This document shows positions 3,782 through 41,887 of a DNA stretch of 41,887 nt, piece after piece; position 1 is the stretch's first letter; the number at the start of each line of letters is the position of its first letter. The notes beneath the pieces were generated by a model that was not told the DNA's origin, made no database searches, and saw nothing but the letters and a program-made list of their open reading frames with translations. The position numbers and the translations under genes are program-made. This stretch comes from a virus. Where the stretch lies: the IMG/VR virus record IMGVR_UViG_3300028800_000027, positions 1 to 41,887 of that record; one strand, 5' to 3'.

Positions 3782-3806
3782 CATTTAACGCCACACACCG
3801 TTACGT
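3778..3806 (+). promoter_or_regulatory. Weak promoter candidate (TTGACA-N17-TTACGT)
   Basis: A perfect TTGACA (3778-3783) and a poor -10 (3801-3806) lie in the short gap before the primase-helicase gene. The following sequence (CGTTACGTTGC) resembles that of the candidate upstream of the terminase gene (CGTTACAGTTGC). Confidence 0.25.
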
Positions 3807-3838
3807 TGCAGCGCCTTGGCTGGGCTGTCGGAGACGCT

Positions 3839-5974
3839 ATGCTTCAATCTGCTATTGCCGACTTGCAACGAAGCGGCATTACGCCTGACGAGGCCGAGCA
3901 GGCGGGTATGTTCGACGTCCCAGACGCATCTGCCATCTATCCCGAGTTCCAAAGCGGGCCGGCGATCGTCATCCCGTACTACGACGCACACGGACAAATC
4001 GCGACGTTCGAACGCGGCGCGGAGGTGCTTCCATTCTGCCGCGTCCGCTATCTGGACCAGCCCGTAAAAGCAGGATTCATCCCGCAGAAGCCAATCCGCT
4101 ACGGCCAGCCGAAGGCGAGTGGCACCCGCGCTTACTTCCCGCCCACCGTGCCGTGGGAAGCGGTGTTAACGGACAGCACAGAGCCTGTTGTCATCACGGA
4201 GGGGGAAAAGAAATCGCTGGCTGGCGTGTTGTCGGGCTTCCCGGTCATAGCGCTGGGCGGCGTGTTCAACTTCATGGACGGCGAGGACATCCTACCGGAG
4301 CTTGACGCGGCGAAGTGGCGTGGCCGCGATGTATATATTTGCTTCGATAGCGACGCTGTTCTGAATCCGAACATCCTGGCAGCGGAGGCCCGTCTCGTCG
4401 ACGAGCTACAGCGCAAACGCGGCGCGCGGTGTTACCTGGTGCGTCTGCCGCAGGACGGCGACCGCAAGGTGGGGCTGGACGACTACCTGCTGGCGCACGG
4501 CGCCGCGGGCTTCACCAAGCTCCTACAGGATGCGCCGTCGCTGGGCGCGCTCGACGCCAAGGTGGTTGCGTTGAACAAGTCCGTGGCGTGGATAGAGCGG
4601 GAGAATTTGGTCTACGACCTTGAGACGCGCCTGTTCATCCCCAAGGACTCATTCGTCAACGGCTCGCGCTTCTCCACGCTGAAGCACATCACCGTCGGCG
4701 GCAAGCAGCGCAGCGCACCCAAGACGATCAGCGTGGCCGCGACATGGCTGACACATCCACACGCGCAGCGCTTCAGTGAGGTGCTGTTCCGCCCCGGTGA
4801 AGGCGTGACGGTGCAGGGCGATCATGGCCGGCCGGCGTTGAACATGTGGACCGGCTGGGAATCGGCTGACGGCGATGTAGAGCCATTTCTGGAACTTAGC
4901 GACTTCCTGTTTCAGAATGTAGCACCCGATAGCCGTGAACTGCCGCTCAAGCTCATGGCCTATAAGGCGCAGAACCCGGCGGAGAAAGTGCCGCTCGCGC
5001 TGGTGCTGATTGGCCCGCAGGGGTGTGGAAAGACGCTTTGGGGCGAGTGCATCCGCGATGCGTTTGCGCCGTATGGCGTCGATGTTACATCAAAAGCATT
5101 CCACTCGGAGTTCCAAGGATGGTTGGAGCGCTCGCTGATCGCGCTTATCAACGAAGCCGAGCATGAAGACATGATTCGCGGCGGCGACGTGCTCAAGTCG
5201 CTGATTTCAGATCTCCAACGCCCGATGAACGAGAAATACCGTCCGGCGCGGCAGATCAAGACCTACACCATGTACATCCTCACCTCGAACAGTCGCGCAG
5301 TGGGTGCATTCTCACCCGATGATCGGCGCATGATCGTCGTGGACTGCCCGAAGAAACGCGACTGGGCGTTTTACGATCGCATCTCGGCATGGAAGCGCAA
5401 CGGCGGCGCCAAGGCGCTGCTGGGATGGTTGCTCAACTACGACCTTAAGGGCTGGAAGCCGCCCGCCTCTGCGCCCATGACGTCTGAGAAATACATGGCC
5501 TACATGGAGTCGCTGACGCCCGTGCAGCGCCTCGCCGAGGAAATGCGTACGGCGTCCGAGAACACAATCAAGCTTTGGCTTGACCAGGCGGTCGCGTGGG
5601 CGCGCGTTGCCGAGTTGAGCAACAACGCATCGCTGGCCGCGATGGCGCGAGCGACTATTGAAGGCGTCGCCAGTATCCAGATTCGCCCATGGTACACGCC
5701 CGAAGAACTCGCGCTTATGTTCCCGTCCATTATCGAGACGCAGCTGGGCAGCAGGTATCAGCGTGGGACGCCAAGCGGGCGCATCAGCCGAGAGCTTCGT
5801 GAAGCCGGTGTTCCCTACCTGCAATGCAAGGACGATCCGCGCGGCTTCAGGTGGCACGGTGTGGTGCGCCAATACCTCGTCGTGTCTGAGTTTGATGACT
5901 GGCGCGAACCGATCACCCAGGCCGACTTCGAGCGAATGATGAAGGCGTGGCCGAAGCACGGGGCGCGGCGATGA
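3839..5974 (+). CDS. Primase-helicase (TOPRIM-like plus SF3/D5-like ATPase)
   Basis: A 711-residue replication protein. The N-terminal half has a TOPRIM/DUF3854-like core: VVITEGEKKS with the catalytic-type Glu at ~121, ALGGVFN, and VYICFDSDA with the Asp pair. The C-terminal half is a helicase ATPase: Walker A GPQGCGKT (residues ~392-399), Walker B-like LIALINEAE (~435), and sensor-like YILTSNS. It resembles the DUF5906/primase C-terminal helicases of phages and satellites. It probably unwinds the fork and makes primers for the family A polymerase at 9738. ATG 3839 has GGAG five bases upstream; an in-frame TTG at 3806 is the alternative. The stop overlaps the next start. Confidence 0.85.
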   Translation: MLQSAIADLQRSGITPDEAEQAGMFDVPDASAIYPEFQSGPAIVIPYYDAHGQIATFERGAEVLPFCRVRYLDQPVKAGFIPQKPIRYGQPKASGTRAYFPPTVPWEAVLTDSTEPVVITEGEKKSLAGVLSGFPVIALGGVFNFMDGEDILPELDAAKWRGRDVYICFDSDAVLNPNILAAEARLVDELQRKRGARCYLVRLPQDGDRKVGLDDYLLAHGAAGFTKLLQDAPSLGALDAKVVALNKSVAWIERENLVYDLETRLFIPKDSFVNGSRFSTLKHITVGGKQRSAPKTISVAATWLTHPHAQRFSEVLFRPGEGVTVQGDHGRPALNMWTGWESADGDVEPFLELSDFLFQNVAPDSRELPLKLMAYKAQNPAEKVPLALVLIGPQGCGKTLWGECIRDAFAPYGVDVTSKAFHSEFQGWLERSLIALINEAEHEDMIRGGDVLKSLISDLQRPMNEKYRPARQIKTYTMYILTSNSRAVGAFSPDDRRMIVVDCPKKRDWAFYDRISAWKRNGGAKALLGWLLNYDLKGWKPPASAPMTSEKYMAYMESLTPVQRLAEEMRTASENTIKLWLDQAVAWARVAELSNNASLAAMARATIEGVASIQIRPWYTPEELALMFPSIIETQLGSRYQRGTPSGRISRELREAGVPYLQCKDDPRGFRWHGVVRQYLVVSEFDDWREPITQADFERMMKAWPKHGARR

Positions 5975-6267
5975 CGCCCGAACGCGCCGCCGTCCTACTT
6001 GTAGTAGATCCCCGCGCAGATGCTGCGACGGTACGCACAGCCTACGCCGCGGCGGTCAAACGCGCCCACCCCGACACAGCTGCGGAAGGCACGTCGGGCG
6101 TGCCAATTCGGGATTTACAGGCGGCACGCGATTTGCTGCTTTGTGGCGTAGAGACTCAAAATAGTGCTTGCAAGCTATGTCAGGGCAGCGGTAAGGTGCG
6201 TGGCGCTATGGGGTTGCGCGATTGTGCCGCTTGTAATGGTACGGGAGATAGTTATGGACAATCTTGA
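5971..6267 (+). CDS. Mini J-domain protein with zinc finger
   Basis: A 98-residue protein combining a short J-domain, with the HPD tripeptide at residues 33-35 (VKRAHPDTA) between two helices, and one DnaJ-type zinc-binding pair, CKLCQGSG (67-74) and CAACNGTG (85-92). In DnaJ proteins HPD stimulates DnaK ATPase and the CxxCxGxG motifs bind zinc. Here both are compressed, so it could recruit host DnaK to the replication complex, as lambda P and DnaJ do at the lambda origin. That role is inference from its place directly after the primase-helicase, to which it is coupled by ATGA. Confidence 0.8.
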   Translation: MTPERAAVLLVVDPRADAATVRTAYAAAVKRAHPDTAAEGTSGVPIRDLQAARDLLLCGVETQNSACKLCQGSGKVRGAMGLRDCAACNGTGDSYGQS

Positions 6268-6661: not shown

Positions 6662-7459
6662 ATGGGACAGGAAATCGTCAATTTCAACGAAGCGTGGGCC
6701 GAGCAGGCTCAGAAGTGGGCGCAGGAAGAACCTCTGAACGGTGGTACGTTCCTCTCGACGCGCGGCGGTACGCTGGCGTTCGGTGACGAACAGCTGCCGG
6801 GCAACCAGGCGGCGGTCATCATCCTGGATTCGGTGTACGAGAACACCTACTACGCCGACAAGTTCGACCCTGACGTTGCAGCCGCGCCGACGTGTTACGC
6901 CTTCGGCCGCGCCAGCGATCCCGAGGAAATGTCGCCGCATCCGTCGATGCAGAACGACGCATACTTCGTTCCACAAGCTGAGGTGTGCTCGGCTTGTCCG
7001 CATAACGAGTGGGGCAGTGCCGACAAGGGGCGCGGAAAGGCGTGTCAGAACCGCCGCCGCCTGGCGCTCATCCCGGCCGGCTTCTACGCGCCAAAGCGCG
7101 GGTCGCGCGACTTCGATCTGGAGCTTTTCGACGATCCGAAGCACTTCCAGACTGCGGACATCGCGTTCATCAAGCTGCCGGTGACGTCGGTCAAGGGCTG
7201 GTCGAAATACGTCAGCCAGTTGTCGTCCGCGATGCGGCGCCCGCCGCACGGCGTCATCACGCGGCTGTATCTCGAGCCTGACGCCAACTCGCAATACATG
7301 GTGAAGTTTGAAGCCATCGAGGAGGTGCCCGACGCGCTTGCGGCGATCGTGATGGCGCGCGCCGATGAAGCGTCGAAGGCGACGGTACAGGGCTATAAAG
7401 CTCCTGAGCCGGCGGATGCAGCGCCGCAAGGCTCGCTGCGCGGACTTCGGAGGCGCTGA
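6662..7459 (+). CDS. Candidate ssDNA-binding or replication accessory protein
   Basis: 265 residues, soluble. A cysteine cluster CSACPHNEWGSADKGRGKAC, Q in the middle of the protein could bind zinc; it is preceded by VYENTYYADKFDPDVAAAPT, CYAFGR and followed by AFIKLPVTSVKGWSKYVSQL. The C-terminal tail (EPADAAPQGSLRGLRRR) is low-complexity and basic. Similar proteins sit beside polymerase genes in other podoviruses, and I suspect single-stranded DNA binding, but no diagnostic motif proves it. An SD-like AGGAG lies seven bases before ATG 6662. Confidence 0.5.
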   Translation: MGQEIVNFNEAWAEQAQKWAQEEPLNGGTFLSTRGGTLAFGDEQLPGNQAAVIILDSVYENTYYADKFDPDVAAAPTCYAFGRASDPEEMSPHPSMQNDAYFVPQAEVCSACPHNEWGSADKGRGKACQNRRRLALIPAGFYAPKRGSRDFDLELFDDPKHFQTADIAFIKLPVTSVKGWSKYVSQLSSAMRRPPHGVITRLYLEPDANSQYMVKFEAIEEVPDALAAIVMARADEASKATVQGYKAPEPADAAPQGSLRGLRRR

Positions 7460-7574: not shown

Positions 7575-7876
7575 CCAAGCTGTTGACGCCCGTGCAAGCC
7601 GCCGAACAACTGGGTTGCTCCAAGAAAACACTGCTTGAGCACGTCCACGCCGGCGAAATACGCTACATCCACATCGGACACGGGACCAAAAAACCGCGCC
7701 GCATGTTCACAGACGAGGATATTCTGGCTTTCGTTGAAAGCCAGGCACGGAGAGACAACCCATGTCCGTCTACAAGCCGAAGGGTTCGCCGTTCTACCAC
7801 TACGACTTCCAGTGGAGAGGTCGTCGCTTTTGTGGCTCAACTGCGAAAACAAAGCGCGCAGATGCGGCCAAGGTAG
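7571..7876 (+). CDS. Excisionase-like HTH protein
   Basis: 101 residues from a GTG overlapping the previous stop. The first ~60 residues form a MerR/excisionase-type winged helix: LLTPVQAAEQLGCSKKTLLE, HVHAGEIRYIHIG, RRMFTDEDILAFVES. The remaining ~40 residues overlap the integrase gene by 115 bp in another frame and are Ser/Thr/Arg-rich, so perhaps only the N-terminal part is under selection. Overlapping xis/int genes are classical in lambda. By position it should be the recombination directionality factor; it might also regulate transcription. Confidence 0.7.
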   Translation: MTKLLTPVQAAEQLGCSKKTLLEHVHAGEIRYIHIGHGTKKPRRMFTDEDILAFVESQARRDNPCPSTSRRVRRSTTTTSSGEVVAFVAQLRKQSAQMRPR

Positions 7877-8880
7877 AGCAGGTGCAGCGTGAGCGGGCGC
7901 GGCTGGAAATTAACGCAGAGAACGCCGTTACTGGGCAGCTTACGCTAGAAAATGCAGCTGGGCGCTACCATCAAGAGGTGGGCAAATACCTCGCGAGCGC
8001 GGATGACGCGACGCGAGATTTCGCGCGGATGATTCTTTTCTTCGGTGGTGACAAGCCTCTGGCGGAGATCACCAACGCCGAAGTTGCGCGCTTGGTTAAT
8101 TGGCGCCGCGGTCATCATGTGGTCCGCAACCCGAAAGCAAAGCTCAAAGACTGTCCGATCGTTTCAAACGCGACAGTCAACCGCTCGACCGTCGAACTGC
8201 TCAAGCGGCTTTTTCGGCGGGCCAAGGCGGCGTGGGGAGCGTCCCTACCTAATGAGCCGACATGGAAGACCCACCGGCTTTCTGAGCCGCAGGAGCGCGT
8301 GCGCGAGCTTATGAACGACGAGCCGGAAAAACTGGAGTTGGCAACGCGAGCCGACTACGCCCCGTTCTTCGCTTTTGCCAAGGCGTCGGGCCTACGCTTG
8401 GAAGAATGCCTGCTTAAGTGGTCGGAGGTGGACTGGCGCACGGCGCGGATCATCAAGGAGGGTAAGGGAGGTAAGCGCCTCACAGCTCCCATCACGTCAG
8501 AGATCCGGGCGATCCTGGCGCCGCTGGTAGGGCACCACCCGGTACACGTCTTCACTTATGTCGCGCGCCGCACGCGCGAGGGCCGCGTCAAGGGCCAGCG
8601 ATACCCTTTGACCTACTCGGGCGTGAAGACGGCGTGGCGGCGGTTGCGCAAGCGCGCGGGAGTCTCAGACTTCCGTTTCCATGACTTCCGCCACGACCTC
8701 GGGACGAAACTGCTGCGCGAGACGGGGAACCTCAAACTCGTGCAGAAGGCGCTGAACCATGCCGACATCCGCACCACGACCAAATATGCCCACGTCCTCG
8801 ATACTGAGGTGGCGTCGGCGCTGGAGCGCGTCACAGAGTCCCGAACAAAGTCCCGAAACGAACGTAAGAAGGTGGGTTAA
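7762..8880 (+). CDS. int: Tyrosine integrase
   Basis: 372 residues. The C-terminal catalytic domain carries the full set: Arg212 (SGLRLEE), a beta-hairpin Lys in KGGKRL (235-239), His307-x-x-Arg310 (FHDFRH), His333 (LNHAD) and the nucleophile Tyr342 (TKYAHV). The N terminus is an arm-type DNA-binding segment, then a SAM-like core-binding domain (~60-160). It should insert the phage at tRNA-Pro: the attP core lies only 41 bp after its stop. It overlaps the HTH gene upstream. It lies inside the replication operon rather than in a separate lysogeny module. Confidence 0.96.
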   Translation: MSVYKPKGSPFYHYDFQWRGRRFCGSTAKTKRADAAKVEQVQRERARLEINAENAVTGQLTLENAAGRYHQEVGKYLASADDATRDFARMILFFGGDKPLAEITNAEVARLVNWRRGHHVVRNPKAKLKDCPIVSNATVNRSTVELLKRLFRRAKAAWGASLPNEPTWKTHRLSEPQERVRELMNDEPEKLELATRADYAPFFAFAKASGLRLEECLLKWSEVDWRTARIIKEGKGGKRLTAPITSEIRAILAPLVGHHPVHVFTYVARRTREGRVKGQRYPLTYSGVKTAWRRLRKRAGVSDFRFHDFRHDLGTKLLRETGNLKLVQKALNHADIRTTTKYAHVLDTEVASALERVTESRTKSRNERKKVG

Positions 8881-9532: not shown

Positions 9533-9741
9533 CTCTTTTTGAACTACCTACAGCGCCTAAAGAGTGGAATCTACCACAGGTCGAAACTCTAACGTGGCGA
9601 GCGGGCAATTACGCAGGCCACGAGGTCGTTGTAGCTCACTGGCCGAACGGCGACCATGCAGTGTACCTCAGTGCCGGACGACCAGAAGACGCCGTGCTGG
9701 AAAGCATGCTTCTGGTGCTCAATGCGGCGCGCACACAATGA
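9529..9741 (+). CDS. Hypothetical protein, 70 aa
   Basis: Overlaps the preceding stop (ATGA) and the polymerase start. The sequence (GNYAGHEVVVAHWPNGDHAV, YLSAGRPEDAVLESMLLVLN) suggests a small alpha/beta protein with two beta strands and a C-terminal helix. Not recognised. Its position suggests co-expression with the polymerase. Confidence 0.55.
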   Translation: MTLFELPTAPKEWNLPQVETLTWRAGNYAGHEVVVAHWPNGDHAVYLSAGRPEDAVLESMLLVLNAARTQ

Positions 9742-11624
9742 GAGTACCCGACTGCATCGTCATCGACTTTGAGACGTATCCGATCAAGAATCGGCCGACG
9801 TATCCGCCCAAGCCTGTCGGCGTCGCAATCGCCTGGCCGGGCGAGCGGCCGTTCTACATGGCGTTCGGCCATCCGACGGGCAACAACTGCTCGGCGGGCG
9901 ACGCCATGGCGGAGCTTGAGCGTTGCTGGGCCTCCGGCCTGCCGATCCTCTGCCACCACGCCAAGTTCGACCTCTGCGTGGCCTGCGAGGGCGGAGGGTT
10001 GCCGGAGCTACCGTGGCAGCGTGTCCACGACACGATGTACCTCGCGTTCCTGTTCGACCCCCACGCCCGCAAGCTGGACCTTAAGGGCTTGGCAGCGGAG
10101 GTGCTGCACCAGCCGCCTGACGAGCGCGACGAGCTTGACGAGTGGATCATGGCGCACGGCGCGCAGCTGCTCGAGGCGTATCCGTGGAACAAAAGTGCGC
10201 CAGGGCAGCGCAAGATCACGAAGCGGCAGTGCGGCGCGTGGATCTTCGCGACGCCTGGCGACATAGCGGGACGCTACGCCTGTGGCGACATAACGCGCAC
10301 GCTGGACCTGTTCAACGAGCTTTGGCCGATCATCCAGGAAAATGGCATGGGCGCGGCTTACGATCGCGAGCGCCAACTTATGCCGATCCTGATGGAGAAC
10401 GAGCGCGTCGGGATGCGCGTCGATCTCAACGGCTTGGACGAGCAGGTCGCTTATTACGATCAGGCGATGGCGTACGCCGAGACCTGGCTGCGCGAGACGC
10501 TGGGCGCGAGCGGGCTGAACTTCGACGCCGACGCAGATGTGGCGAACGTCCTGCTTCAGCGTGGGATCGTGCCGGAGGGCAACTGGACGCTGACCGAGAG
10601 CAACCAGCTTTCGATGAGCAAGGAAAATCTGCTGCCCGAACACTTCACCGGTCCCGGCGGAGACATGGTGGCCGCGGCACTCGGCTACCGCAACCGGCTC
10701 AAGACCTGTCTCGAGATGTTCATGCGCCCGTGGCTGACGCAGGCGCGCGACAACGGCGGCTACATCTGCACGCACTGGAACCAGACGCGCGGCGGCGATG
10801 GCGGTACACGTACCGGGCGCCCGAGTACGATGGACCCTAACTTCCTGAACATCAGCAAGGACTTCGACGGCCGCGACGACGGCTACCGGCACCCGGACTT
10901 CCTTGAGCTTCTGCCTCTGCCGCTGGTGCGTAAGTTCGTGCTGCCCGACGAGGGCGAGGTGTGGCTGCACCGGGACTTCAACAGCCAGGAGCTTCGCATC
11001 TTCGCCCACTTCGAACAGGGCGATCTCTGGCAGCAGTACCACAACGATCCGCGCATCGACGTCCACGCCTTCGTGGGCAAAGAGCTTATGGCGGTCGCGC
11101 AGCGCGAGATTGAGCGCACCAAGGTCAAGGTGATGAACTTCCAGTCGCTGTATGGCGGCGGCGCGCCTGCGCTACAGCGTAAGCTGCGCTGTTCGTTGGC
11201 GGAGGCGAAGGAGCTTAAGGCGTTCCACAACAAGGCGTTACCTGGCCGTGTCGTCCTGAACGAAGAAATCAAGCGCATCGTGAAGCGTGGCGAGCCGATC
11301 CGCACATGGGGCGGACGCCTCTACTTCCCCGAGCCGGTGGGCAAGGACGGTCGCGACAAGATCTACAAGCTCATCAACTACGAGATTCAGGGCAGCGCGG
11401 CCGATTACACCAAGCAGACGATCATCGAGTGGCACGCGGCGAAGGTGAGGTCGCGGTTCCTCGTGACCGTCTACGACGAAAACAACATTTCCGCGCTGCC
11501 CGAGCACGCCGATCGCGAAATGAAAATCTTAGCCGAAGTGATGGAGGCACCACGCCTCACAGTCCCGATGCTGTCCGACGGCAAGCGTGGCTCAACATGG
11601 GGAGACCTGAAGAAATGCGCGTGA
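9738..11624 (+). CDS. Family A DNA polymerase with 3'-5' exonuclease
   Basis: 628 residues. Exonuclease: ExoI Asp10-x-Glu12 (IDFETY), ExoII HAKFD (Asp78, with His where Asn is usual), ExoIII Tyr180-x3-Asp184. Polymerase: motif A Asp413...Glu418-Leu-Arg420 (RDFNSQELR), motif B Arg460-x3-Lys464-x3-Phe468-x3-Tyr472-Gly, motif C Val-Tyr-Asp580-Glu581. Motif C normally reads His-Asp-Glu, so Tyr is a notable change. There is no 5' nuclease domain, as in T7-type enzymes. It should be the replicative polymerase and partner of the primase-helicase. ATG 9738 overlaps the previous stop. It is the first large gene after attP. Confidence 0.95.
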   Translation: MRVPDCIVIDFETYPIKNRPTYPPKPVGVAIAWPGERPFYMAFGHPTGNNCSAGDAMAELERCWASGLPILCHHAKFDLCVACEGGGLPELPWQRVHDTMYLAFLFDPHARKLDLKGLAAEVLHQPPDERDELDEWIMAHGAQLLEAYPWNKSAPGQRKITKRQCGAWIFATPGDIAGRYACGDITRTLDLFNELWPIIQENGMGAAYDRERQLMPILMENERVGMRVDLNGLDEQVAYYDQAMAYAETWLRETLGASGLNFDADADVANVLLQRGIVPEGNWTLTESNQLSMSKENLLPEHFTGPGGDMVAAALGYRNRLKTCLEMFMRPWLTQARDNGGYICTHWNQTRGGDGGTRTGRPSTMDPNFLNISKDFDGRDDGYRHPDFLELLPLPLVRKFVLPDEGEVWLHRDFNSQELRIFAHFEQGDLWQQYHNDPRIDVHAFVGKELMAVAQREIERTKVKVMNFQSLYGGGAPALQRKLRCSLAEAKELKAFHNKALPGRVVLNEEIKRIVKRGEPIRTWGGRLYFPEPVGKDGRDKIYKLINYEIQGSAADYTKQTIIEWHAAKVRSRFLVTVYDENNISALPEHADREMKILAEVMEAPRLTVPMLSDGKRGSTWGDLKKCA

Positions 11625-12358: not shown

Positions 12359-12727
12359 ATGGCAAAGGCGAAAGTGCGTCAGAAGGGCGCACGATTGACC
12401 GAGCGCACGAAGGGCGAGACCGAGAAACCGGTGAAGCTGCTTCAACTCATCGCAACGATGGGGATTACTCGGGCAGCACGGCAACTGGGTATCAGCACAA
12501 CAACCATCCACAAAGCGCGGCGACACAACGTCGTATCGCGCGTCATCGAAATAGCCGCCGCCAACGTACTGCGCGACTTGGCGGGCAAGGCGGACGGCGA
12601 CACTCCGAAGCCTGCTGTCAAGTCGGACGACGCGACGATCTCATATCTGATGATCGTGGCGCGCTCGAAAGCCGGCGTGGTGGAGCAGTTCGCGAAAGCA
12701 ATAAACGCCACTCTCGTCGAGACTTGA
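12359..12727 (+). CDS. HTH regulator candidate, 122 aa
   Basis: A basic N terminus (KAKVRQKGARLTERTK), then a helix-turn-helix: LLQLIATMGITRAARQLGIS, TTTIHKARR, similar to Fis-type or transposase-like HTHs. The C-terminal half (ISYLMIVARSKAGVVEQFAK) is helical and may dimerise. It has its own promoter candidate and a good AGGAG seven bases upstream. With no CI-like gene found, this is a leading candidate for a lysis-lysogeny or early-to-late regulator, but nothing in the sequence proves that. Confidence 0.65.
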   Translation: MAKAKVRQKGARLTERTKGETEKPVKLLQLIATMGITRAARQLGISTTTIHKARRHNVVSRVIEIAAANVLRDLAGKADGDTPKPAVKSDDATISYLMIVARSKAGVVEQFAKAINATLVET

Positions 12728-39295: not shown

Positions 39296-39608
39296 GGGCG
39301 CTTCGTGGCGTGGTGCTCCGCGATGGGTGTGTAATGATGCTACTACGTTTCCTGAGATATGATAGCTGCTTCGAAATTTTGATATTTATTCCGAGAGCGC
39401 CCCTTACGACGCAGCCCCGCCCCTCACCACGAACCACCCCCGGCCCCCTCGAACGTCGTCACGGTAAAGGCGGGTTAACCTTTCCAACGAAGTAACCACG
39501 TCGCGCAGCACGCGGGCAGGCGCGTTGCCTGCGCATTTGGATTGCGTCGAAACGAAATGGATTGAATCAATGGGCGAAAGGATTTGTTAAGTAACACAGT
39601 GACTTAGT

Positions 39609-39625
39609 GTAGCGTAGCGACATAG
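39609..39625 (+). repeat. 17-bp repeat copy 1 (gtagcgtagcgacatag)
   Basis: Identical to 40460-40476, and 14 of its bases recur at 15039-15052. A related gcgacatagcac is on the minus strand near 37470. This copy is directly followed by a strong hairpin. Confidence 0.85.
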
Positions 39626-39658
39626 CACGGCGTAACGTAGCACCACGTTGCGCCGTGC
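39625..39658 (+). promoter_or_regulatory. Strong hairpin upstream of 67-aa gene
   Basis: 14-bp arms gcacggcgtaacgt / acgttgcgccgtgc (one G-U pair) with loop agcacc. There is no T-run, so it is not a standard terminator; it could be an attenuator, antiterminator site or structured 5' leader. Confidence 0.65.
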
Positions 39659-39694
39659 CCGTGGTGGTGCCGGCGCCAGGTGACGGAGGATGTA

Positions 39695-39898
39695 ATGCTC
39701 TATGAAATCAATGGCTTAGATGCCAAGGTGCGCGGTGTCGTGGCAGCTGCGGCGGCGCGGAAGGGCTTGTTGCGCAGCGATCGCGGGGGCGAAGTGGGGA
39801 GATATGATAGCATTGTTGAGGGCGAAGGGGCCAAGACGCCTGAGTGCGACTGGGCGTCGTTTCGTCGTTACCTCGACTGGCTGAACGAGTACCGATAG
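39695..39898 (+). CDS. Small protein, 67 aa, in regulatory region
   Basis: ATG 39695 has GGAGG five bases upstream. The protein (MLYEINGLDAKVRGVVAAAA; ECDWASFRRYLDWLNEYR) is not recognised; a helix and an aromatic C terminus are visible. An ATATGATAGCATTGTTGAG copy falls within the gene and nearly matches 40018-40036, so the gene overlaps the repeat family. It could be a small regulator. Confidence 0.5.
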   Translation: MLYEINGLDAKVRGVVAAAAARKGLLRSDRGGEVGRYDSIVEGEGAKTPECDWASFRRYLDWLNEYR

Positions 39899-39943
39899 GC
39901 CGGAGGCGCTACAATATCTGCGCAACGAAGCAACGTTGGAGAA

Positions 39944-40090
39944 TGCTATCATATTTAAACATTATGATAGCAGGGTCGCGTATACGCTTCTAAGATATGA
40001 ACAATAATAATATATATATATAATAGCATTGTTGAGCTAGAAGAAACGGTTTTACCCTCCAGCTATCATAATGTTAAAATATAATAGCAC
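39944..40090. other. AT-rich core with repeat elements; candidate origin
   Basis: A strongly AT-rich stretch in a GC-rich genome, including an alternating TA run (40009-40022). It contains inverted 14-bp arms aacattatgatagc (39958-39971) and gctatcataatgtt (40062-40075), and further ATATGATAGC-like elements. The combination of iterated short elements and an easily melted core is what an origin or a multi-operator control region looks like; which one is undetermined. Confidence 0.5.
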
Positions 40091-40093
40091 TAG

Positions 40094-40115
40094 AAGCCGG
40101 CATTTCCGGGCTTTT
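40094..40115 (+). terminator. Weak terminator candidate
   Basis: Stem aagccgg/ccgggctt with one bulged base, followed by TTTT (40112-40115). It would stop plus-strand transcription leaving the AT-rich core. It also overlaps the stop of the minus-strand gene at 40114. Confidence 0.35.
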
Positions 40116-40326
40116 AGAACAACGCTACTACGCCACGAAGAAACGTAGTAGCTACGCTATCCACACAAACAATGATAGCGCCGACACAAGCTCCCCACAC
40201 TCCGCCGGCGATTGGCGCGACGAAAATCGCCCCAACAAAACTACGCAAATCACTCGTGCGCACGGGAGTCACCAGCATAACGTGGGTGAATATGATAGCG
40301 CCCAACAAAGCTCCAAGCTCGACCAT
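40114..40326 (-). CDS. Small membrane protein, 70 aa, opposite strand
   Basis: ATG 40326 has GGAGG eight bases upstream. It is hydrophobic throughout (MVELGALLGAIIFTHVMLVT; FVGAIFVAPIAGGVWGACVG, AIIVCVD), with two transmembrane segments. It is transcribed against the early operon and contains two repeat elements (40171, 40290) and a 9-bp inverted repeat gctactacg/cgtagtagc (40124-40152). Isolated opposite-strand genes in such regions are often expressed from the prophage. Function unknown. Confidence 0.55.
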   Translation of the reverse strand: MVELGALLGAIIFTHVMLVTPVRTSDLRSFVGAIFVAPIAGGVWGACVGAIIVCVDSVATTFLRGVVALF

Positions 40327-40459
40327 TTGAGATCCTCCACCGGCCAGCTTAGCAGCCAGGCCCTAACATTGTCCTACCGGCTGAAACACAAAATTAACCA
40401 GCGCTGCAACATCGCGTTGAAATATGATAGCACCCTCTTGCGTGTCACCACGCCACGGA

Positions 40460-40476
40460 GTAGCGTAGCGACATAG
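40460..40476 (+). repeat. 17-bp repeat copy 2
   Basis: Identical to 39609-39625. It ends 13 bp before the first early gene (ATG 40490), overlapping where a regulator would control initiation of transcription or translation. Confidence 0.85.
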
Positions 40477-40489
40477 TTGGGAGACACAC

Positions 40490-41263: not shown

Positions 41264-41887
41264 ATGCCAACGAAGAAAACGAAGCAGCCCGAAACCGTCA
41301 TCGCGTACAAAGGTTTCGACAAAAACCTTAGATGCCGCGATCACCAGTTCGAAGTCGGGCAGAGCTATGAACTTACCGGCGGTACGATTCAGGCGTGCAG
41401 CTACGGCTTCCACGCCTGTGAAAACCCGCTGGACGTGTGGAGCTACTATAGTCCGTTCGATAGCCGCTTCGCTGTAGTGGAGTTGTCGGGCGAACTGTCG
41501 CGACACGATGAAGACAGCAAGATCGCAGCGGCCAAGATCACCATTAAGGCCGAGCTGTCGCTTCCCGAGTTTATCGGTAAAGCCGTCCAGGCTGTTATCG
41601 ACGCAACTACAAAAGCGCGACCGACGAAGAAAACCAAACTTAGTGACAACGCCGGCGACCACGCGCAGATCGGGTCGTCGGGCGACAGCGCGCGGATCGG
41701 GTCGTCGGGCGACCACGCGCAGATCGGGTCGTCGGGCAACTACGCGCAGATCGGGTCGTCGGGCGACAACGCGCAGATCGGGTCGTCGGGCAACTACGCG
41801 CAGATCGGGTCGTCGGGCGACCACGCGCAGATCGGGTCGTCGGGCAACTACGCGCAGATCGGGTCGTCGGGCAACTACGCGCAGATC
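41264..41887 (+). CDS. Repeat protein, N-terminal part (DUF7666-like), runs off window end
   Basis: This is the 5' part (208 codons) of a gene that continues at base 1 once the 114-bp terminal overlap is collapsed; the joined gene would encode about 328 residues. The first ~130 residues form a compact domain with a KGFDKNLRCRD motif, FEVGQSYEL, YGFHACENPLDVWSYY and RHDEDSKIAAAKI. I recognise this as the DUF7666 type found in phage proteins of unknown function. A lysine-rich linker and tandem 9-residue units (G-[ND]-x-A-Q-I-G-S-S) follow. The start is chosen from a GGGAG ribosome-binding site six bases upstream, in a leader (gggagacacacATG) identical to that of the gene at 40490. Function is unknown; the repeats suggest a beta-solenoid-like extended rod. 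Confidence 0.8.
   Translation, partial: MPTKKTKQPETVIAYKGFDKNLRCRDHQFEVGQSYELTGGTIQACSYGFHACENPLDVWSYYSPFDSRFAVVELSGELSRHDEDSKIAAAKITIKAELSLPEFIGKAVQAVIDATTKARPTKKTKLSDNAGDHAQIGSSGDSARIGSSGDHAQIGSSGNYAQIGSSGDNAQIGSSGNYAQIGSSGDHAQIGSSGNYAQIGSSGNYAQI
41666..41887 (+). repeat. 27-bp coding tandem repeat, eight units plus 6 bp
   Basis: Eight units of the repeat seen at 1-270, with variable codon pairs in the order DS, DH, NY, DN, NY, DH, NY, NY, then cagatc at the window end. The unit at 41693 begins cgg instead of cag. The copy number is probably unreliable because an assembly end falls inside the array. Confidence 0.97.
41774..41887. repeat. Terminal overlap identical to bases 1-114
   Basis: Four repeat units plus cagatc (NY, DH, NY, NY) are identical to bases 1-114. 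This is the pattern of a circular or circularly permuted genome whose contig ends overlap. It could instead be chance identity of units in a repetitive array. Confidence 0.75.

Follow-up and report, generated by a model that had tools for sequence, protein, structure and literature searches.

The window analysed here, i.e., the whole 41,887-nucleotide stretch of viral DNA, contains an array of repeated 8-letter sites in the gap of ~1 kb that separates the two main gene blocks of the phage. The array is genuine and far above chance. Based on the DNA sequence, protein structure models, and analogy with described systems, we infer that it is probably a theta-type iteron replication origin that is opened by the phage's own primase-helicase. 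As such it is a probable case of an origin whose architecture is of a known kind but whose setting is unrecorded; in the literature searched (most subscription journals lay outside it), no description was found of iteron origins for DUF3854/DUF5906 primase-helicases in tailed phages.

To the left of the array is a leftward packaging and structural operon (terminase, portal, capsid), and to the right is a rightward replication operon that includes genes for the primase-helicase, an integrase, a family-A polymerase (9564–11624), an exonuclease, and an SNF2-type helicase, in agreement with the divergent operons of a preliminary description of this DNA. The window ends overlap by 114 nt inside a repetitive DUF7666 gene, which points to a closed genome despite the linear class given in the record; because the window closes on itself, the right operon runs on through the window start. 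The DUF7666 protein (41264–41887 plus 1–477) that spans the ends has a long collagen-like/GSSG(D/N)xAQI repeat. No RNA polymerase was recognized among the proteins scanned.

The exact 10-mer ATATGATAGC is present in five copies and the motif ATRATAGC, which takes in one-base variants, in ten; all of these are within 39359–40431, and neither motif is found elsewhere in the window. The roughly ten copies of the preliminary description thus stand for ATRATAGC but not for the 10-mer, some of them being one-base variants, and its report that the motif is used on both strands was borne out. Once the related arms GTAGTAGC are added, the half-site widens to RTRRTAGC, with 13 copies in 39300–40480 (~1.2 kb), 10 of which are ATRATAGC, compared with an expectation of 0.39 and a maximum of 4 in 2000 dinucleotide shuffles. 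The remainder of the 41.9-kb window has four copies, which is chance level. Eight of the 13 half-sites form four inverted pairs (spacers of 11, 11, 12, and 13 bp), and the other five are single (Table 1). A nucleotide comparison with known phages found nothing over the array. The pattern GCTATCATN9-13ATGATAGC was also searched for in all viral contigs and gave 66 matches in 65 stretches, mostly due to chance; the 27-bp length is apparently enriched among them, but duplicates inflate this enrichment.

Table 1. Positions in the window of the array sites, the core, and the candidate binding proteins (L045, a close relative; G001 and G004, related phages).
Feature	Position	Strand	Remarks
Inverted half-site pair, GCTACTAC-N12-ATGATAGC	39339–39366		Kept in L045
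Single half-site, ATGATAGC	39804–39811	+	Within small ORF 39695–39898; GTGATAGC in L045
Perfect 27-bp palindromic pair, GCTATCAT-N11-ATGATAGC	39945–39971		Same geometry in G001
AT-rich core, inverted arms AATGCTATCATA...TATAATAGCATT	39942–40030 (about)		Candidate melting region
Half-site ATAATAGC, then conserved right core flank ATTGTTG	40020–40034	+	
Inverted pair, 27 bp, GCTATCAT-N11-ATAATAGC	40062–40088		
Inverted pair, GCTACTAC-N13-GTAGTAGC	40124–40152		
Single half-site, ATGATAGC	40172–40179	+	
Single half-site, ATGATAGC	40292–40299	+	
Single half-site, ATGATAGC	40424–40431	+	~60 bp upstream of first gene of right operon
Primase-helicase, 722 aa: DUF3854, DUF5906/SF3-type ATPase, C-terminal domain	3806–5974	+	Candidate initiator
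C-terminal domain (last 185 residues), predicted winged-helix-like	5417–5971	+	Candidate site reader; missing in G004
Small HTH protein P0008	12359–12727	+	Rival candidate binder; weak ModE-HTH match

Half-sites flank the AT-rich core on both sides, and no other 80-bp stretch of the window has a GC content as low as that of 39951–40030 (0.25; next lowest 0.40). The TA-rich core of the preliminary description was located, but the 14-bp arms given for it are complementary at only 12 of 14 positions; the arms as defined here are 27 nt each, 81% complementary, and 35 nt apart. Core counterparts, AACAATGCTA...TAGCATTGTT (an AT palindrome), were identified in the related phages G001, G007, and G008 and in the fragment L158. 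The GC skew, which had been proposed as a check, has no clean switch at the array and is uninformative.

Related phages with polymerase and terminase 55–70% identical to those of the window keep the array at the same place. It is in the same position in G001 (41.6 kb; terminase 67% and polymerase 59% identical), where the inverted pairs measure 21, 27, and 30 bp and CAATGCTA...TAGCATTG flank an AT core; the array is also present in G007 and G008 (primase-helicase 65% and 60% identical, respectively), in front of the terminase operon in the fragments L156, L157, and L158, and as a sparser set of sites in G028/L032. Half-site counts exceed those of shuffles in all of these. By contrast, the half-site is missing in G004, G011, and G006; in G004 and G011, a different inverted repeat, which is AT-rich, is at the corresponding place. 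Loss of the motif in close relatives of unchanged gene order had been put forward as evidence against the array; instead, the motif is kept in G001, G007, and G008, and in L156–L158 as far as these fragments reach, but not in G004, where the C-terminal domain of the candidate initiator is also lost. The DNA around the array, judged by eye, has diverged among relatives; since the sites are kept while the flanking DNA is not conserved, the simplest interpretation is that the sites are under selection. The DNA polymerase tree of the relatives is too poorly resolved for counting gains and losses of the array. In the close relative L045, the array is kept but the right operon begins with another gene (after 6100), and an insertion in the small ORF 39695–39898 leaves its reading frame intact.

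No initiator or repressor gene was recognizable in the preliminary description; however, the primase-helicase is a plausible initiator and the product of 12359–12727 a plausible HTH protein. The former was not among the binders proposed earlier (the products of 12359, 7571, 17944, and 39695). Its gene is ~5.1 kb downstream of the array, counted across the closed window ends, compared with 2–4 kb in G001, G007, and G008, where the array is also 5′ of the gene. A profile of 22 relatives matches the helicase of the phage NrS-1 polymerase (E = 6e-34). The AlphaFold model of the full-length protein (pLDDT 88) matches the NrS-1 CTR (E = 1e-18), SaPI PriRep1 with dsDNA (7pds; 1e-8), and SaPI5 (7ola; 3e-7), with further matches to D5-type and papillomavirus E1 helicases. 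A search of genome contigs with the primase-helicase found no relative.

The C-terminal domain is modelled as a separate domain (pLDDT 84). When it was compared alone against the PDB, Foldseek gave nothing significant (best E = 1.7), and a second structural comparison (VIA) gave NrS-1 residues 618–718 as the best match (Z 5.7, a middling score that a common arrangement could also give; rmsd 3.2, 95 aligned), followed mostly by winged helices. A sequence profile of the domain had no match in the PDB, and the P4 origin-binding domain was not among the matches listed in either structural comparison. In G004 the domain is lost, the ATPase motifs look degenerate, and the half-sites are absent too (one case); this phage may initiate replication differently. 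The G004 protein (L225:7431–8636, L153:3–563) apparently also lacks the arginine-finger region. Overall identity of the C-terminal domain fails as a predictor of the motif: G011 (60%) lacks the motif, whereas G001 (54%) and G028 (55%) have it. Site specificity may rest on a few residues of the domain. The first residue of the recognition-helix region is R/M/Q/R/Q in the array phages and mostly E in others, but as a predictor it offers too few cases, with G029 as an exception.

We posit that the primase-helicase would bind the iterons via its winged-helix-like C-terminal domain, assemble at the core as one or two ring hexamers, and melt the AT-rich DNA; it would then load itself and prime synthesis by the phage family-A polymerase. 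The scheme is that of a self-loading initiator, as in the Rep helicases of SaPI/PICI and in P4 alpha. P4 alpha is a single protein with primase, helicase, and origin-recognition functions, and the P4 origin has repeated short sites. The window enzyme is likened to P4 alpha with ori1/crr by this description of a one-protein initiator and repeated short sites.

P4 alpha and ori are also named in the account of PICI origins, in which an AT-rich region is invariably surrounded by two sets of iterons (PMC6092414); in the SaPI Rep and SCCmec Cch2 helicases, it is the C-terminal domain that recognizes the repeats (PMC7581432). As in PICI/SaPI (PMC6092414; PDB 7pds, 7ola), the phage array has short iterons in two sets around an AT-rich core, and the enzyme has a fused primase and SF3-type helicase, the predicted model of which resembles the two SaPI structures, and a C-terminal domain that, from the model, is proposed to read the iterons. 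Unlike in these satellites, the window array belongs to a tailed phage that is complete and encodes a polymerase of its own, and the likeness is one of layout and predicted fold; the PICI/SaPI origin is directly 3′ of the initiator gene, whereas the array is 5′ of it and at a distance, and many of the window iterons are in inverted pairs. The primase-polymerase of the deep-sea vent phage NrS-1 (PDB 6k9c, 6k9e, 6lrb) is the closest solved helicase by both profile and fold, and its C-terminal tail also matches; however, the N-terminus of the window enzyme matches the DUF3854 and phage DNA primase families rather than the described Prim/Pol. For NrS-1, only two copies of its 8-nt recognition sequence are reported, and no description of an iteron array was found (PMC7102993).

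A similar layout was identified beside distant versions of the primase-helicase (24–38% identical) in a survey of 61 loci that looked, with no motif preset, for AT-rich DNA with clusters of one 8-mer in four or more identical copies. Of 20 such clusters, 18 are within 1.2 kb of the enzyme gene (3.2 expected, P = 6e-13), although the independent cases are somewhat fewer, as closely related loci are among them (e.g., L242 and L251 share an iteron). A near-gene cluster is detectable in at most 18 of the 61 loci. AT-rich dips contain a cluster in 19 of 57 cases near the gene versus 4 of 99 elsewhere (P = 1.3e-6), and in 1 of 1140 shuffled near-gene dips. The iterons are on both sides of the AT minimum in 15 of the 18 clusters, often in opposite orientation, and the clusters adjoin the enzyme gene either 5′ or 3′. 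In one distant phage (L258), the enzyme of which aligns with that of the window up to residue 695, GTAATAGC occurs nine times ~0.5 kb before the primase-helicase gene and fits RTRRTAGC. Phages AXL3, PW916, and YuA (cultured relatives) and ctUtU524 do not have four identical 8-mers in AT-rich DNA near the primase; in PW916, inverted arms accompany an AT-rich stretch instead.

Iterons, operators, and stoperators had all been offered as readings of the array, of which the iteron origin is the best supported: the place is conserved, sites lie on both sides of the AT core, and homologous primase-helicases in many phages have this architecture beside them. Against it, the sites in the array clade are 2–5 kb from the enzyme gene and not beside it, near-gene clusters are limited to at most 18 of the 61 distant loci and were not seen in AXL3, PW916, and YuA by the criterion used, and the GC skew does not switch cleanly at the array. 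The rival that is still live is an operator array at which a phage repressor or regulator, e.g., the HTH protein, would control both divergent operons in immunity or an early/late switch; we regard this as unlikely, yet it retains force because the motif does not follow overall C-terminal identity and because two palindromes in G003 (a 12.9-kb fragment) are at promoter-like positions before genes, where they overlap, by eye, TTGACA-type sequence before a sliding-clamp-like gene and another ORF. The position of the array exactly between two divergent operons, inverted pairs that would suit a dimeric regulator, and an integrase gene suggestive of a temperate phage are also consistent with operators, as is the presence of the HTH protein in all four well-covered array phages (the window, G001, G007, and G008) and not in G004, G011, and G012. 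However, G028 has palindromes, but no relative of the HTH gene was found at its syntenic place, a covered region in which the exonuclease gene directly abuts the following one; no clear enrichment of sigma-70-like promoters was seen in the array of the window (3 found versus 1.2 expected) or of G001, where none was found. Operators would also leave unexplained both the single conserved AT core and the iteron clusters that unrelated phages have next to the gene of the primase-helicase. The HTH gene is distant from the array, and the scanned array neighbors (40490, 40690, 39695, 37812, 38475, and 38728) include no repressor-like Pfam match.

Iteron-binding plasmid Rep proteins autoregulate, and the initiator might likewise start replication at the array and repress the operons via sites at the flanking promoters. 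Sites that reach almost to the first gene of the right operon and the promoter-like placement of the G003 palindromes fit such a dual use, but no C-terminal domain was found in the G003 fragment, and we consider this less likely again than operators alone. Very improbable is a role in blocking transcription, either as stoperator-like sites or through RNA hairpins or terminators formed by the inverted pairs. Some pairs do have complementary arms, and one (40152–40124) is terminator-like on the minus strand; however, the arms of the pair at 39339–39366 are not complementary along their full length, several sites are single, the array has no match in Rfam, and terminator-like matches are not clearly enriched in it (3 versus 1.6). 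The stoperators of cluster A mycobacteriophages are many copies of a short site scattered over the genome, whereas the window sites are confined to a single region of 1.2 kb, on both strands, with the rest of the genome at chance level.

Returning to the iteron origin, we judge the chances to be even that tailed phages with DUF3854/DUF5906 (NrS-1-like) enzymes share an undescribed origin class, in which lineage-specific iterons, often opposed, surround an AT-rich core and are recognized by a winged-helix domain, the rapidly changing C-terminal part of a self-loading primase-helicase. Replication origins are unknown for most environmental tailed phages, and the layout has so far been described mainly in phage satellites, while here it accompanies the same enzyme in many further phages. 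If the class is real, an origin layout that was called unique to PICIs (PMC6092414) would be widespread in phages themselves, and the origins of many uncultured phages could be predicted from sequence. The rule (iteron clusters and an AT core near a DUF3854/DUF5906 primase-helicase gene) would make such predictions testable, tie phage replication to that of satellites (PICI/SaPI, P4), and offer an experimental handle on the co-evolution of iteron and reader.

Several further features of the replication genes and array flanks were identified. The replication operon encloses the integrase gene (7762–8880), of which G001 has just a weak relative at another place. A DnaJ-like zinc-finger ORF (5947–6267) directly follows the primase-helicase gene, and a DnaJ-domain gene is also downstream of the primase-helicase homolog in phages AXL3 and PW916. 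A 265-aa Cys-containing protein (6662–7459), which is 65–67% identical in G001/G007 and 40–44% in G004/G011, is possibly a single-strand-binding protein. An identical 17-mer, GTAGCGTAGCGACATAG, is present at 39609–39625 and 40460–40476, upstream of genes 39695 and 40490, respectively.
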